DNA from: Fimbriimonadaceae bacterium
Lineage (GTDB): Bacteria; Armatimonadota; Fimbriimonadia; Fimbriimonadales; Fimbriimonadaceae
Assembly: GCA_025934835.1 (NCBI GenBank)
Contig: JAICWL010000035.1
Coordinates: 1-32,256 of the forward strand
Reading direction: 5' to 3'
Length of the DNA stretch: 32,256 nt
The position numbers and the translations under genes were made by a program. The first letter of the stretch is position 1. Each line of letters opens with the position of its first letter. This document shows positions 4,136-24,923 of this stretch, in pieces. Under the pieces are notes generated by a model. The model saw nothing but the letters and a program-made list of their open reading frames with translations, was not told the origin of the DNA and did no database searches.

Positions 4136-4243
4136 GACGGATCTTTTGAGAGCACCCCTCGAGCAGCATGAGCTATACGAGCCCACGAATCTCCAGGGTC
4201 TACAACCTGTAACCCTGCTCCGCGACCAAGCGGGCAGCAACGG

Positions 4244-4270
4244 ACAAGGCGCCCCCAAGGGGCGCCTTGT
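4244..4270. terminator. Bidirectional hairpin between convergent genes
   Basis: A perfect 12-bp inverted repeat with a 3-nt loop: ACAAGGCGCCCC at 4244-4255 and its exact complement at 4259-4270. It sits between the ends of the HAF gene (+) and the thioredoxin gene (-), starting 4 nt past the stop of the latter. There is no strong T-tract on either side, so intrinsic termination is likely but not certain. Confidence 0.6.
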
Positions 4271-4274
4271 GAGC

Positions 4275-5354
4275 CTACTTCTCGGCCAACGCCGCCTGCA
4301 CGGCCTTCGTCAACTCGTTCGGATCCACTCCGACGAACTTGTTTCGAATAACTCCCTTCGCGTCGATCACATACACGGTTGGCCAACCGTGCACGTTCCA
4401 CGCGGTCGCGATCGGCCCCGACGTCGTACCGTCGGAAGCGCTGCGATAATTCAGTCCCTGGTCTTTGATGATTTTCTGGAGAGCCGACCGGTCTCCGTCG
4501 CTATTGATCCCTACGAGGGCAAACGGCTTGTCTTTGAATTCTTCGACCATTTGCTTGTTGTGCGGGAGCAGTTCGCGGCAAGGTCCTCACCAGAACCCCC
4601 AGAAATCGAGCACGACCACTTTGCCCCGGTAATCCGAAAGCTTGAAAGCCGTGCCATCCTGGTCGACCGCATTGAAATCCGGCGCTACCTGGCCGATCGA
4701 AAGGTGATCCATCTCGAAGATCGCCGATTGTGCGCGCTTCGCATACGACGTCGATGGGTACTCCGCGATGACCTTCGCATACGCCTTTCGTGCCGCCACC
4801 GGATCGCCCCGGCCGTCTTCGGCTGCGCTCGACGCCTGGCTAAACAGCGCCGACGCGCGAACTTCCGGGTTGCGGCTCTCCTGAATCTCCGCTAGCCAGC
4901 GATGGATCTTCGCCTGGCGGACATTCGAGGGTTGGTCCGAAAGAGTGTAAGGAATCATCGCGACGAGTCGCGCGATCTGAGGGCTGTTCAAGTAACCCGC
5001 GATCGCCTTGTCGACCGCCATCGTTTCCGATGCGTGGTCGCGAGCGGATTCGGCTGTTTCCAGCACCATCATCCAGGCGTCGAAGCCCTGCGGACTGCCG
5101 CTTTCCGCCATTGCCAGCTTCTTGAACTTTGGAAGATAAGTCTTCGCGGGATTCATTGCGGCGTCCAGTTGGATCTTGGATCGCTCTTCGTCGGTTTTGG
5201 CCTTACTGTAAGGCTCGAAATACTTGCTCAGGGCCGTGGAATATTGCCGCTGCAGCTCATCCAGGGCCGTTGTCTTCCCTTTTGCCTGAGCAGCGACCGA
5301 AGTCGCGCTCACCCCGGCAAAAGCGATGGAAAGCACAATCAACGCGTTTTTCAC
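4275..5354 (-). CDS. Exported TlpA-like thioredoxin, candidate selenoprotein (in-frame TGA at 4587-4589)
   Basis: A single frame runs from GTG 5354 to TAG 4275 with one internal TGA at codon 256. Before it lie a signal peptide (VKNALIVLSIAFAGVSATSVAAQA), about 190 helical TPR-like residues, and a redoxin start (GQVAPDFNAVDQDGTAF, then GKVVVLDFWGFW). The TGA follows, and the frame continues GPCRELLPHNKQ, GINSDGD, the cis-Pro motif GWPTVYVID, and ends ALAEK. In TlpA-type thioredoxins the residue after FWxxW is the first Cys of CxxC, so the TGA is exactly at the redox cysteine (U256-G-P-C259). Selenocysteine is the natural reading. Read as a stop, it would leave a dead 255-residue protein and an orphan half-domain. 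A TGC or TGT to TGA mutation or sequencing error is the alternative. The protein is predicted to be a periplasmic thiol/selenol oxidoreductase of 359 residues. Confidence 0.75.
4546..4589 (-). promoter_or_regulatory. SECIS-like stem just downstream of the TGA
   Basis: Bacterial SECIS elements lie in the coding sequence directly after the UGA. Here ACCTTGC (4584-4578) can pair with GCAA (4554-4551) and GGT (4548-4546), separated by a 2-nt bulge. Inside, GCG (4576-4574) can pair with CGC (4564-4562), closing a 9-nt loop that contains a G about 17 nt past the TGA. The spacing is right for a bacterial SECIS, but the apical stem is short and the G is not at the start of the loop. This is therefore only a candidate. 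Confidence 0.3.
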
Positions 5355-5358
5355 GTTT

Positions 5359-5363
5359 CCTCC
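5359..5363 (-). promoter_or_regulatory. Ribosome binding site fixing the GTG start at 5354
   Basis: GGAGG lies 4 nt before the GTG on the minus strand. It selects this start, directly ahead of the signal peptide, over a longer upstream reading that would add 24 residues. Confidence 0.7.
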
Positions 5364-5391
5364 AGCTATGGGGCGCCCTTGCGCTAACGCC

Positions 5392-5397
5392 AGTATA
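5392..5397 (-). promoter_or_regulatory. Probable -10 box for the thioredoxin gene
   Basis: TATACT on the minus strand lies 37 nt upstream of the GTG start and would give a leader of about 30 nt that includes the GGAGG site. No convincing -35 box is seen. Confidence 0.4.
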
Positions 5398-5432
5398 ATG
5401 CCGGATCTCGCAGGATACGAGAGCAAAAGGCC

Positions 5433-8156
5433 CTAAGGCGCAAAGTCGAGCGAAAGCTCGATGTTGAACCCGCTCGAACGGTAGGCGCCATTCGATAGGT
5501 TATCGCTCAAGTTCGCTACCCTGTGGATCCGATAGCTCCCCACCAGAGCGATCCCCTTAACGATCGAATACGAGTAATACGTGGACAAATACCCCTCGTC
5601 CTGGCCGTAAAGACCCGTCGAGCGGCCGGTACGGAACTCCGTCCCCACACGCTGGCGAGGCGCCAGGCGATACGAAAGCGAGCCGTTGAGCGAAAAGCTG
5701 TCCTGGCTGAATGCCGAATTGCCGCTCGATAGCTGGCTCATAAAGCCGAGCGAGTAGGCCCACGGCCCGGGCGGGCTACCCTGAAGTTGAGCCGCAAACG
5801 AGCTGAACGTGGTCCTGCCCGTCACACCGCCGCTGTCGCTCGTCGATCCAAGTACCTCGCCCAGAAAGTCGGTTAAAGTCCGGTCGATCGAGCCGCTGAA
5901 AATGGTGTACTTGCCGAGGTCCCAATCGAGGCCCAAACCGAACGAGGTCGAGCTCGAATTCGAAGACAGCTCACCTTGGCTTCGCGTCTGGTAGGCGTGC
6001 GCGTTCATCGTGATGCGGTCCGAGGGCTTGTAAGTCGGCATCACCTCGAGCTGTTGGTAGCTAGAGCTGGCATTGCCGAGCAGCCCATCGCCTACCGCAC
6101 CGCCGGTGAATCCATTCCCGAGGGAGGGGCCCCCGCCATAGCCCAGGCCGAACCCACTCGATAAGCCGCCGATCGACGTCAGCGCGCCCGAATCGCTCTT
6201 CGTAAACCGCGTCGTGAGCGACCACGGACTCTTGGCAGGCTTGAACTGCGCGCCGAGAGTGATATCCGACCCTGTGCTGTCCTTACCCTGCGACTCGATT
6301 CGATTGATGCTGGAATCGGCCTGCAGAGCGAGAGAATCGGTCGGCGCGTACCTCAAGCTGCCGGTGAAGCCCCGCAGATGTACGGAGTCGTCCTTCAGCT
6401 TCGTGCCATCGAAGTACTGCAGCGTCCCGTCCTGAATCTGCGTGCCGAGCGTCGTTTCCAGCTTTCCGAATTTACGAGTGCCCGTAAACGCAGTGGTGTC
6501 GATGCGGTTTTCCGAAGTCGAGTTGCTGTAGAGCCGCTGGTGGGTCAGGTTCCACGTAACGCCGCCAGGGTCGCTATATCGAGCAAAGGCATTCAGCGCG
6601 GTTGTTCGCGCTGGGCTCGGAACTACCGTTCCGTTCGGTCCGGAGAGCCAAGTGGCCACACTGCTGTTGTTGTTGTCGATCCCCCAGTGGTATCTGCCCG
6701 CCTCGTAGTCCACGCCGAGGTCCGTCGAGCGCTCGTTCCGATTGAACCCCGCGGTTTCCATCGAGACGAACGTCGGCGGGACGTCCTTAACCGTTCCGTG
6801 CAATGAGAATTTGCCAAGCTTGTACTGCCCGTCGAGCTGCCTTGCAAGCCCGCTCATCGGGTTCGACTCGCTGAGCAGCGTGCCCGTCGCCTGGCTGTAC
6901 TGCACATACCCGGCCTTCCCCATCGTCAGACGGTAGTCGAGACCCCACACGCGGCGGTCGCCGTCCAGGTTCGAGGCCTGCCTGGGCCGGTAACGGAAGT
7001 CGACGCGCGCGTCAAAAGGCACAATCCGCTTGAAGCGAACCGCGTAAGGGATGTCGACGGGGATGTAGTAGTCCCCGCCTGGCGCGTTCGGTGGACCCTG
7101 CACCTGAATGATGCCGTCCACGCGTACCTCCAACGTGCCCGGAAGCGGCTCGGCCTGAAGAAAGAACGTGTCGTCCGGCTGGCCCGAGCCGCTTTGCTGG
7201 TCCAAAATCGTCCCCGCTACGCCGAGCCCTGTGCCTGTTTGCTCCAAGGCCGTCAGTCCGAGACGCCCCAACTTTCCAAAGTCGTACGAGGCCGCCGCGC
7301 CCTGCAGCGTGCCCCCTTCCGTTCCGAATCCGTACGATTCGAAGCTCGCCACGATGACGCTCGTTGGAGCGATCACCTGATGCAGGAACGTGAGCGTGCC
7401 GGAGTCGAGATCGACCACATAGTCTTCACCCAGCTTCATCGTTTGCCCGTTGACCTGTACCTGCAGACTATCGCTGACGATTCGGCCGCTTTGCAGGTAG
7501 TAGGGCCCCGACGTGTTGTTCCCGTCGATGCTCACCGTATGGGCGCTTCCCTTCGCTTGGCTCCGCACCACTTTGAACTTGAGCCGGCCCGTGTCGACCT
7601 CGGTGCTTACTCCCTTCATAGCCCGCTGCATGTTCGCCAGCGGGTTTGTGTTCAGCATCGTGCCGCGGATATCCCCGGCGCTGAACCGCACCGGCCCCTT
7701 ATCGTAATCGAGCGTCACCCGCTGCGATTCCGGGTCGAAATACCGCTGGTCCGAAAACTGCATCTGGAAGTTGAACATCCCCAGCACCTTGTTTCCGGTC
7801 ACCGTCATCTGACCGGTGTTCGTAAAATGCTGGTTGCCGTTTCCGTAGTAGTTGTCGAGGTTGTATGCCTCCGCGTCGCCAGAGACCTGCTCCATGTGGA
7901 AGCCGAGCTCCCGGCTCCCGCGAAGCTCAACCCGCTTGAAAATGTTGCTGTCCAGCCAGTTCGTGCCTATGGAGTGTTTGTTCAACCCCGGCCTCATCGG
8001 CTCGAGCGTCGACTTGTGCACGCTAGGCGAAGCCTTGGAGGATTCGAGAACGGCCCTCAGCGCTGCCCGCGGCAAAAACGGCAGGCGCGGTATGGCACTC
8101 GCGGCGACGGAGCCCGCGAGCAAGCAGCCCACCACAGTTCCACGGACGACGACCAT
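5433..8156 (-). CDS. Large outer-membrane beta-barrel protein
   Basis: This 907-residue protein starts with a signal-like segment (MVVVRGTVVGCLLAGSVAAS). The body has no enzyme motif but has the look of a barrel: many alternating hydrophobic/polar strands such as RITMNAHAYQTRSQGEL and YTIFSGSIDRTL, abundant Gly, Ser, Asn and Tyr, and a C-terminal strand ending IELSLDFAP. The middle has two beta-domain lines (SLQVQVNGQTMKLGEDYVVD followed by LTFLHQVIAPTS, and TLEVRVDGIIQVQG) that recall the plug or surface domains of large outer-membrane proteins. No SLH domain is visible. It is last in the rhomboid-DUF5693-csaB cluster, 58 nt after csaB, which suggests an envelope role. The substrate is unknown. 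The start is not supported by a clear ribosome binding site. Confidence 0.7.
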   Translation of the reverse strand: MVVVRGTVVGCLLAGSVAASAIPRLPFLPRAALRAVLESSKASPSVHKSTLEPMRPGLNKHSIGTNWLDSNIFKRVELRGSRELGFHMEQVSGDAEAYNLDNYYGNGNQHFTNTGQMTVTGNKVLGMFNFQMQFSDQRYFDPESQRVTLDYDKGPVRFSAGDIRGTMLNTNPLANMQRAMKGVSTEVDTGRLKFKVVRSQAKGSAHTVSIDGNNTSGPYYLQSGRIVSDSLQVQVNGQTMKLGEDYVVDLDSGTLTFLHQVIAPTSVIVASFESYGFGTEGGTLQGAAASYDFGKLGRLGLTALEQTGTGLGVAGTILDQQSGSGQPDDTFFLQAEPLPGTLEVRVDGIIQVQGPPNAPGGDYYIPVDIPYAVRFKRIVPFDARVDFRYRPRQASNLDGDRRVWGLDYRLTMGKAGYVQYSQATGTLLSESNPMSGLARQLDGQYKLGKFSLHGTVKDVPPTFVSMETAGFNRNERSTDLGVDYEAGRYHWGIDNNNSSVATWLSGPNGTVVPSPARTTALNAFARYSDPGGVTWNLTHQRLYSNSTSENRIDTTAFTGTRKFGKLETTLGTQIQDGTLQYFDGTKLKDDSVHLRGFTGSLRYAPTDSLALQADSSINRIESQGKDSTGSDITLGAQFKPAKSPWSLTTRFTKSDSGALTSIGGLSSGFGLGYGGGPSLGNGFTGGAVGDGLLGNASSSYQQLEVMPTYKPSDRITMNAHAYQTRSQGELSSNSSSTSFGLGLDWDLGKYTIFSGSIDRTLTDFLGEVLGSTSDSGGVTGRTTFSSFAAQLQGSPPGPWAYSLGFMSQLSSGNSAFSQDSFSLNGSLSYRLAPRQRVGTEFRTGRSTGLYGQDEGYLSTYYSYSIVKGIALVGSYRIHRVANLSDNLSNGAYRSSGFNIELSLDFAP

Positions 8157-15886: not shown

Positions 15887-16675
15887 TTATCCGCCTGCCG
15901 ATGCGGCACGCTCCGAGCGGGCCGTCTGCCAAAGCTTCTGCCAATAGTAGTCGTGCGGCACGTTTCGCTTCCGACCCTCGCGGCTGCCCATCATGATCCA
16001 GGCTCGTCGAGGCACGTCGGTGTGATTGGCGGGCGCGTAATGAAGCGTTCGCTGATGATGGATCGTGCACCCGCCGGCTCGCAGCGGCGCTGCGACGGCC
16101 CCGGAAAGGTCCAAATCCGCATCGACCTCCAGTCCGTGCACCCTCGGATCGTTTCCGATCGGCCGGTGAGGCGCGACCTCCATCCGATGGCTCCCGGGCA
16201 CGAAGTGCATGCATCCCGAAGCCGCGTCCACGTCCTGCAGCGGCATCCAAACGCTGAGCGAGAAATGGTCGTAGCCGGGGTCCCAATACGCCTCGTCCTG
16301 ATGCCACGGCGTTGGCGATCCGTAGCGCGCCGGCTTGAGGATCGCATGGTCCCCTTGGCCCGACAGCTCGCCGCCGAGAAGCTGCTCCATCACCACGCGG
16401 GCGTTCGCCCAAGCCAGAGTGTCCTTCAGCTCCGGCGCGTACTTGCTGGGATTCAAAATCTGTGGGAGCTTGGCGGTCTTGCCTTCCTCGTCGTCGCCCG
16501 CCAGATCGAATTGGTCGCCAGTTTCGCGCCCTACGCGGGCCTCGAACAGCCGGTCGTAAACCTCGCGAATCCTCAGCACCTCGTCCGGCTCGGTGAGCTG
16601 GTCGATCACCAGATACCCGTTTTCGCGATAAAAGTTGATTTGCTCGTCGTCGAGTCGGAGCGTGGGTTGGGGCAT
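15887..16675 (-). CDS. Phytanoyl-CoA dioxygenase (PhyH) family oxygenase
   Basis: This 262-residue protein starts with FYRENGYLVIDQLTEPDEV, the usual PhyH opening. It has the Fe(II)-binding HxD motif in PWHQDEAYW (His125, Asp127) and a distal histidine in RTLHYAPANHT (probably His212), within a cupin-like fold (LSVWMPLQDVDAASGCMHF, VPGSHRM). PhyH enzymes are non-haem iron, 2-oxoglutarate-dependent hydroxylases with very varied substrates, so the substrate here cannot be named. GGAGGT lies 10 nt before the ATG. The neighbours are a HEAT-like protein 39 nt upstream and the fucosidase 67 nt downstream, all on one strand. Confidence 0.9.
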   Translation of the reverse strand: MPQPTLRLDDEQINFYRENGYLVIDQLTEPDEVLRIREVYDRLFEARVGRETGDQFDLAGDDEEGKTAKLPQILNPSKYAPELKDTLAWANARVVMEQLLGGELSGQGDHAILKPARYGSPTPWHQDEAYWDPGYDHFSLSVWMPLQDVDAASGCMHFVPGSHRMEVAPHRPIGNDPRVHGLEVDADLDLSGAVAAPLRAGGCTIHHQRTLHYAPANHTDVPRRAWIMMGSREGRKRNVPHDYYWQKLWQTARSERAASAGG

Positions 16676-16714
16676 CGGCTCGTTACCTCCACAGCGATTA
16701 TGCGCCGATAAAGC

Positions 16715-24089: not shown

Positions 24090-24923
24090 ATGGCCCGAGC
24101 CAAAGTGTTGCTCGCCATTTTCGCGCTCGTCTCGTCCTCTTGGGGTTCATTCAGGGCGTCGGGAGTGTTTTGGGTGAAGAGCCTGGACGTGGGCTTCGCA
24201 CTCGCCAAGCGGCGTCATAAGCCGATGCTCGTGGTGTTCAATGCCCCCCAGCGTCCGTCGGATTCGCTGATGGCCGAAAGCTTCAATGATCCCGACCTCC
24301 AGGAGGCTCTGAATTCGTTTGTTCCGGTCGATCTGGCCGGAAGCTCGACCCCGGAGCTTCTGACTCGCTACCGCGTTCACGCCGTGCCTGCGGTCGTCTT
24401 TATCTCGTCCGAAGGCATCTTGCTCACCCGGGTCACGAGCGGCTTCGATGCGCCCGATTTCCTGCTCGAGGTCCGCAAGGCGCTCAAGGCCGAGAAGGAC
24501 TGGCCGGCAGTGCGGGCCAAGCTCGCCAAATCTCCCAAGGACGGCCCTTCGAACGCCCGCCTCGCCTCGCTCGAGGCGAACTCGGGGGACTTGAAGGCGG
24601 CGCTCGCAGCGCTAAAGAACGCCGAAGAAGCGCGATACACGGGCCCGGACCTCGCCGTCGCCGACAACGCGATCGGGGATGAATTCCAAACCTCGCTCGC
24701 TCTGAACCAAGCCCTGCCCTATTTCCTGGCCGGCAAGAAGGCTGCCCGCACGAGCTTCGACCTAGCCTATTCCCTGGTGAGCCTGCAGTCGGTGTACATG
24801 AGCCTGCGCAAGCCGGCTCAAGCCAAGGAGTACGCGCACATGGTTCTCCAGGTGAAGAACGCGCCCGTGGCGTACGCATCCTTCGCCCGCCAGTTCCTGC
24901 TCCAGAACAGCGGCAAAGGCTAG
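24090..24923 (+). CDS. Exported thioredoxin-fold protein lacking the CxxC motif
   Basis: This 277-residue protein has a signal peptide (MARAKVLLAIFALVSSSWGS) and a thioredoxin-like domain: KPMLVVFNAPQRPSDSLMAE, then FNDPDLQEALNSFVPVDLAG, the cis-Pro line VHAVPAVVFISSEG and DAPDFLLEVRKAL. Where thioredoxins have WCxxC this one reads APQRPS, with no cysteine at all, so it cannot be a dithiol oxidoreductase. The C-terminal 110 residues are helical and TPR-like (LASLEANSGDLKAALAALK, LVSLQSVYMSLRKPAQAKEY). A chaperone or binding role is possible. The start follows a consensus -10 box by 8 nt. The downstream gap of 116 nt holds no clear terminator. Confidence 0.8.
   Translation: MARAKVLLAIFALVSSSWGSFRASGVFWVKSLDVGFALAKRRHKPMLVVFNAPQRPSDSLMAESFNDPDLQEALNSFVPVDLAGSSTPELLTRYRVHAVPAVVFISSEGILLTRVTSGFDAPDFLLEVRKALKAEKDWPAVRAKLAKSPKDGPSNARLASLEANSGDLKAALAALKNAEEARYTGPDLAVADNAIGDEFQTSLALNQALPYFLAGKKAARTSFDLAYSLVSLQSVYMSLRKPAQAKEYAHMVLQVKNAPVAYASFARQFLLQNSGKG

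Follow-up and report, generated by a model that had tools for sequence, protein, structure and literature searches.

Does the TGA that interrupts a TlpA/ResA-like gene in a Fimbriimonadaceae genome end the protein just before its active site, or does it encode the active site itself? The window, by which we mean the whole stretch of DNA analysed, is 32,256 nucleotides long (GenBank assembly GCA_025934835.1, contig JAICWL010000035.1, positions 1 to 32,256). On its minus strand, positions 4275-5354 form one TlpA/ResA-like frame of 359 residues (360 codons, from GTG at 5354 to TAG at 4275-4277), and codon 256, at 4587-4589, is a TGA and the sole internal stop. Comparative sequence evidence indicates that this TGA is very probably a selenocysteine (Sec) codon and the gene a genuine selenoprotein gene, although no canonical SECIS signal was found after it. 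The features referred to below are as follows.

4275..5354, minus strand: putative TlpA/ResA-like selenoprotein coding sequence, 359 residues, GTG start, TAG stop
4587..4589, minus strand: in-frame TGA, codon 256, read here as selenocysteine; the same codon is TGA in 9/9 phylum orthologs
4578..4592, minus strand: redox motif W-U-G-P-C, residues 255-259, from the alignment
4377..4388, minus strand: G-W-P-T loop of the thioredoxin fold, residues 323-326, from the alignment
4281..4703, minus strand: thioredoxin/ResA-fold domain, residues 218-358
4704..5273, minus strand: N-terminal all-helical domain, residues 28-217, TPR-like arrangement in the predicted structure
5289..5354, minus strand: probable Sec-type signal peptide, residues 1-22, by eye
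5359..5363, minus strand: GGAGG, probable ribosome-binding site, 4 bases 5' of the GTG
4545..4585, minus strand: weak imperfect hairpin, GACC-UUGC with GCAA-AU-GGUC, the best local fold after the TGA

The TGA lies at the position of the first redox cysteine, with VVVLDFWGFW before it, GPCRELLPH after it and GWPTVYVID further downstream. The Pfam AhpC-TSA match runs unbroken across it (residues 220-338, E 1e-25), the GC contents at codon positions 1/2/3 are 0.60/0.45/0.72 before the TGA and 0.59/0.41/0.73 after it, and the other two minus-strand frames over the post-TGA stretch contain 4 and 1 stops. The original prediction, a single TGA in a TlpA-like frame with family sequence on both sides, thus agrees with the frame, its flanks and the Pfam match. 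Its further claim that the gene shows no decay holds for the start, the frame, the stop and the coding character of the post-TGA part, while the signal peptide is probable by eye; residues 1-19 have pLDDT <50 in the predicted structure. Cys259 of the W-U-G-P-C motif is, by analogy with the family, presumably the resolving cysteine, and we take the proline of the G-W-P-T loop (residues 323-326) to be the cis-proline of the family; P325 and T326 are invariant across 12 alignment rows. For the N-terminal helical domain, structural matches are weak and a tol_pal_ybgF match falls far under the cut-off.

A profile of six orthologs, searched against 291 Armatimonadota genomes at E<=1e-50, matched nine (the window included). 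All nine carry exactly one TGA, at the same codon, and no Cys form was found among the 291 genomes at this threshold. It had been suggested that stops elsewhere in the genes of relatives would speak against selenocysteine, and in none of the nine does the matched frame contain a further stop. One ortholog, L174, has U-P-D-C in place of U-G-P-C. At E<=1e-20, TGA-bearing TlpA-like matches occur in 14 of the 113 genomes of the order Fimbriimonadales, and selA is present in 12 of these 14 versus 48 of the 99 others (one-sided Fisher p 0.008); the two selA-negative TGA-bearing genomes are drafts that are 73-74% complete. When the comparison is restricted to the six long orthologs of the order, it does not reach significance (selA in 5/6 versus 55/107, p 0.13). 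Among the 15 stop-bearing TlpA-like matches of the order, a single one has TAA rather than TGA (G016, selA-negative).

The surroundings of the gene were compared through the ORFs of at least 100 aa found in 7.7-12.5 kb around five orthologs of the order and the gene of L172. Across these six loci the window shares no neighbourhood other than the gene itself, its opposite frame and one weak match, of L217 891-1655 to window 15887-16711 (26%, 3e-14), which lies some 10 kb away from the gene. Adjoining the gene upstream, on the same strand, 5433-8156 encodes a 907-residue protein with no Pfam match over the cut-off and the C-terminus LSLDFAP, possibly an outer-membrane barrel, if one may guess from its sequence. 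A second thioredoxin-like protein of 277 aa is encoded at 24090-24923 (plus strand); its Pfam match is below the cut-off, it lacks the redox cysteines (NAPQRPSDS) and it looks exported.

The protein search returned 2,250 matches, and counts were made on the best 120. Of these, 39 stop exactly at FWGxW, the window's own product (P0001) among them, 66 fit FW[GAH]xxCxxC and 15 fit neither pattern. An end at FWGxW is the gene-caller output expected for a TGA at that codon. The original prediction had placed the TGA at the first Cys of WCxxC and proposed an alignment of homologs at that codon; this reveals TGA in the nine orthologs and Cys in P0002, P0004, P0005 and others, as the prediction had it. 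A tree of 97 rows was built on the part before the TGA alone, with truncated database proteins scored as Sec-type from their protein ends, the DNA not being seen. It groups the window with P0003, P0006 and P0012, all of which end at the TGA point (SH-aLRT 95), in a clade of 26 rows comprising 23 Sec-type and 3 Cys, and it requires 6 Sec/Cys state changes versus 32.7 in shuffles. P0079 (368 aa), although scored as Sec-type, sits in the other large clade, with Cys rows around it. Cys occupies the codon in P0002, the closest homolog of full length (51%). Past the TGA, over residues 257-345, P0002 and the window protein are 79.8% identical; the figure is 72.5% directly ahead of the TGA (216-255) and 37.4% for the N-domain (30-215). 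The place of P0002 inside a mostly Sec clade is as expected if Cys had replaced Sec there. The post-TGA region is 56-64% identical to those of five Sec orthologs of the order.

Selenocysteine insertion would depend on the host, whose assembly is a 3.33 Mb draft of 190 contigs (94.9% complete, 1.3% contamination). A search of the genome for selA, selB, selC and selD had been proposed as a check, and all four were found. The tRNA-Sec (selC) scores 72.3 bits, above the Rfam cut-off, with anticodon tca (15 weaker tRNA-Sec matches in the genome are all below the cut-off), and selB scores 349 bits, also above its cut-off. SelA is split over two contig ends, one piece spanning model positions 154-454 and the other 1-154; the larger piece is over the cut-off. 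SelD (G000:C91:15589-16506; L018 1498-2490) scores 354.7 bits, above the cut-off, and contains an in-frame TGA of its own (GGGUASKLGP), which is followed by a canonical SECIS hairpin; the GUU loop of this hairpin starts 33 bases past the UGA. The sel genes sit on contigs other than that of the window and the draft has 190 contigs, so a binning error is possible. Across the 113 genomes of the order, selA occurs in 60 and selD in 58, and the matched frame contains one TGA in 51 of these 58 selD genes.

The RNA signal is the part of the system that fits least well, and it tells partly against the original prediction, in which it was not considered. As described in PMC13188914, the bSECIS model comprises an apical loop of 3-9 nt with a G in the first two positions, a stem of 4-16 bp, 16-37 nt spacing and MFE <= -7.5; according to the reviews PMC13188914 and PMC9312934, some genuine selenoprotein genes fail it. 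In a model-based hairpin scan, no hairpin after the window TGA satisfied these constraints. Folding past the TGA is no better than in synonymous-codon controls, with z +0.08 for bases 3-51, +0.77 for bases 24-48, +1.73 for bases 15-54 and -1.1 for bases 24-72. The 48 bases from 6 past the TGA are, if anything, less structured than the controls (z +2.0), and single-strand folding gave z -0.18. Rfam SECIS_1 had no match over the host genome, in a search in which the controls were silent too, and Rfam over 4200-5500 gave two matches only, at chance level. The hairpin at 4545-4585 is not claimed as a SECIS because its folding does not exceed that of synonymous controls. A strong stem about 190 bases past the TGA, CACGGTTGGCCAACCGTG (4374-4391), was rejected as a signal, its bases not being kept in the orthologs. 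As a feature in its own right, it is an 18-base perfect palindrome inside the gene, and the 48 bases that contain it fold at a z of about -3.9.

Related genes gave mixed results. Across the 9 long Armatimonadota orthologs there is no consensus hairpin (RNAalifold -0.31 kcal/mol), consensus folding of all rows together or of the window group revealed no shared structure, and bases 24-72 past the TGA have a weak mean signal (mean z -1.08) with no shared structure seen. The bSECIS model is passed by 3/9 of these orthologs (1/9 when synonymously randomised), the window being among the 6 that fail, by 4/8 small Trx candidates of the order (1/8 randomised), by 27/28 SelD genes of the order (8/28 randomised) and, among the matches listed, by 48/60 Planctomycetota-type genes (13/60 randomised; the first 60 of 109). 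Since the model misses 4 of 8 likely small selenoproteins of the order, failing it does not refute the window gene. Among these small proteins, the USTC/USSC thioredoxin candidates L204, L206 and L210 have a canonical SECIS (GGAGCUC-GGU-GAGCUCC). The small WUGPC thioredoxin candidates L205, L207, L208, L209 and L211, together with L090, have an 11-bp stem in common past the TGA, without the usual GGU-type apical loop. Its RNAalifold value of -15.6 to -16.1 kcal/mol is a raw energy without a synonymous control, from a set that includes four model-failing candidates; these Armatimonadota genes possibly represent a second SECIS class.

The Planctomycetota-type genes carry a canonical signal. For the codon comparison, sequences with <66 bases past the TGA were excluded and duplicates collapsed into one (123 to 119; L100 is a copy of L025, and L173 of L078). 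Among the matches listed, 71 of 109 distinct sequences have HERSLV at codons 9-14 past the TGA, encoded as CACGAGCGGUCGCUCGUN in 68 of the 71 even though Arg, Ser and Leu have six codons each. This sequence forms a 7-bp stem with the loop GGUC, 31 bases past the UGA, i.e., a canonical SECIS of the bacterial type. In 78/109 of the sequences six or more of the 7 stem pairs form, and the total of 624 stem pairs is higher than in any of 200 synonymous column shuffles (mean 613, maximum 620), both among the matches listed. The long TlpA-like selenoproteins of Armatimonadota might instead use a non-canonical Sec signal, either a different or longer-range RNA element or one with little structure, beside the canonical SECIS of SelD and other Trx selenoproteins, so that one SelB would serve at least two kinds of signal; we advance this idea only tentatively. 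If the window group is truly without a canonical SECIS, it constitutes a natural test of what SelB needs for recognition, and those needs bear on bacterial selenoprotein prediction in general.

The missing SECIS is also part of the case for the rival explanations. A Cys-type TlpA gene hit by a recent nonsense mutation, or by a single-base assembly error, at the active-site codon would have no canonical SECIS after the TGA, and the Cys of P0002 at that codon is in keeping with such an origin. However, the TGA recurs at the same codon in 9/9 phylum orthologs, which is the weightiest argument against a chance event and largely refutes this account, and the three nearest database relatives end there too (proteins only, DNA not seen). 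The post-TGA part is conserved with unchanged GC3, and the host has the full Sec gene set. In the other codons of the gene, 16 single-base changes would create a TGA and 126 would create a stop of any kind, so that a chance nonsense mutation at exactly codon 256 is unlikely. The conserved TGA, the Sec-type neighbours in the tree and the selA association together leave little scope for a chance nonsense change, which the original prediction had likewise considered improbable, and we regard mutation or assembly error as very unlikely.

We give similarly little credence to the gene being a former selenoprotein gene whose SECIS was lost in this lineage, so that the TGA terminates translation and a 255-residue N-terminal product is made. 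The lower structure of the post-TGA stretch relative to synonymous controls (z +2.0) would suit such a loss, as would the success of the same model on nearly all SelD genes of the order. However, the protein encoded past the TGA is strongly conserved, both to P0002 and to the five Sec orthologs, and keeps a coding GC3; the absence of a passing hairpin is not private to the window, being common to 6/9 of the long TGA orthologs (window included), and the literature cited above holds genuine genes that fail the model. Reading of the TGA as another amino acid (e.g., Trp), or leaky read-through without selenocysteine, requires no SECIS, and none was found. Yet TGA ends 6 of 16 likely genes of the window (genes hand-picked), from which it follows that the genetic code is not simply reassigned. 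The codon is, moreover, that of the catalytic Cys, which Trp cannot replace in thioredoxin chemistry, and the host carries selA, selB, selC and selD; this last alternative appears extremely improbable.

Under the preferred reading, that of a Sec codon, Sec-tRNA(Sec) would be made by the host SelC, SelA and SelD and delivered by the host SelB at the TGA. With readthrough and export, the product would be a 359-residue exported, probably periplasmic, TlpA/ResA-fold thiol-disulfide oxidoreductase with the active site Sec256-Gly-Pro-Cys259. By analogy with the family, Sec256 would attack a substrate disulfide or peroxide and Cys259 would resolve the bond. The host genome encodes a DsbD-like protein (587 residues, C140), which may act as the electron donor for re-reduction, and the helical N-domain may hold substrates. 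The role may be that of a general reductase or in peroxide defence. We did not adopt a cytochrome c function on the model of ResA, since the lack of a ResB (PF05140) match in the host genome (a 94.9% complete draft; the control matched in 5/14) makes it less likely. Under selenium shortage, a 255-residue product without the redox centre would be expected.

The W-U-G-P-C site reaches well beyond this genome. A DNA scan for F-W-G-x-W-TGA-G-P-C, with one genome per species, gave at least 117 motif matches in at least 116 stretches. One of them, L138 (Streptomyces), is a chance match and was left out of all counts of the family. The other stretches, at least 115, belong by title to Planctomycetota (at least 86), Verrucomicrobiota (at least 11), Armatimonadota (at least 3) and Bacillota (at least 2), with at least 9 unassigned; among the matches listed, Pseudomonadota, Myxococcota, Acidobacteriota and Melainabacteria have one stretch each. 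The frame stays open for at least 80 codons past the TGA in 110 of the matches listed, and in five the locus ends within 60 codons. In an Armatimonadetes W-U-G-P-C gene (L090 3494-3520), another TGA lies 55 codons past the first, possibly a second Sec codon, a frameshift or decay. Some genomes hold several copies, such as WFTN01 (L051, L064, L148) and JAGQRB01 (L093 and two in L116). With at least 115 stretches over several phyla, what is probably an exported selenoprotein group looks common in Planctomycetota and relatives but cut short there: automatic gene calling truncates the protein before its active site in 38 of the 119 other homologs (best 120 of 2,250).

How the protein relates to known systems depends on the level of comparison. 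By fold (alignment, Pfam and predicted structure) it has a TlpA/ResA-type thioredoxin fold with UxxC, and its closest fold and NCBIfam match is ResA, although it does not reach the ResA cut-off (NF002854, 88.6 bits versus 170). The Cys forms ResA, DsbE and TlpA have Cys at the site, whereas the window protein would have Sec, in a host without a ResB match. UGC-containing TlpA (NF041054, WAxxUGC_long) is likewise ResA-like with Sec at the redox site, but its motif is U-G-C rather than U-G-P-C, and the window protein, at 34.9 bits, does not reach its cut-off of 300. It passes no curated NCBIfam cut-off, and none was reached by any of the four W-U-G-P-C relatives tested. The W-U-G-P-C genes of Planctomycetota, Verrucomicrobiota and others (L050-L165, among the matches listed) have the same site and mostly a long N-terminal part, as in the window; the Planctomycetota-type genes have the canonical SECIS with the GGUC loop, which the window lacks.

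Among described selenoproteins, the closest are a 'Thiol-disulfide isomerase-like protein' with UxxC from the Sargasso Sea in 2005 (entry in PMC1088965), 'Trx-like 1, COG0526', also UxxC, from the Global Ocean Sampling in 2008 (entry in PMC2398784), and cd02966 UxxC, listed in Table 1 of a 2026 review (PMC13188914). The same table contains a Prx-like thiol:disulfide oxidoreductase (PF00578, UxxC) and a Redoxin family protein (PF08534, UxxC), with which the window protein shares Pfam families and the UxxC motif, a likeness by family and not by sequence alignment. The window protein differs from the thioredoxin-like UxxC selenoproteins in its extra helical N-domain of ~190 residues, its Armatimonadota (Fimbriimonadales) host and the lack of a canonical SECIS. 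The open-licence literature yielded no described selenoprotein of Armatimonadota or Fimbriimonadales, though supplementary listings may differ. Thioredoxin-like UxxC selenoproteins are already known, and the window gene is very probably an addition to them from a phylum for which we found none described, sharing their thioredoxin/TlpA fold, a Sec where CxxC has its first Cys, widespread Cys homologs and a predicted redox function.
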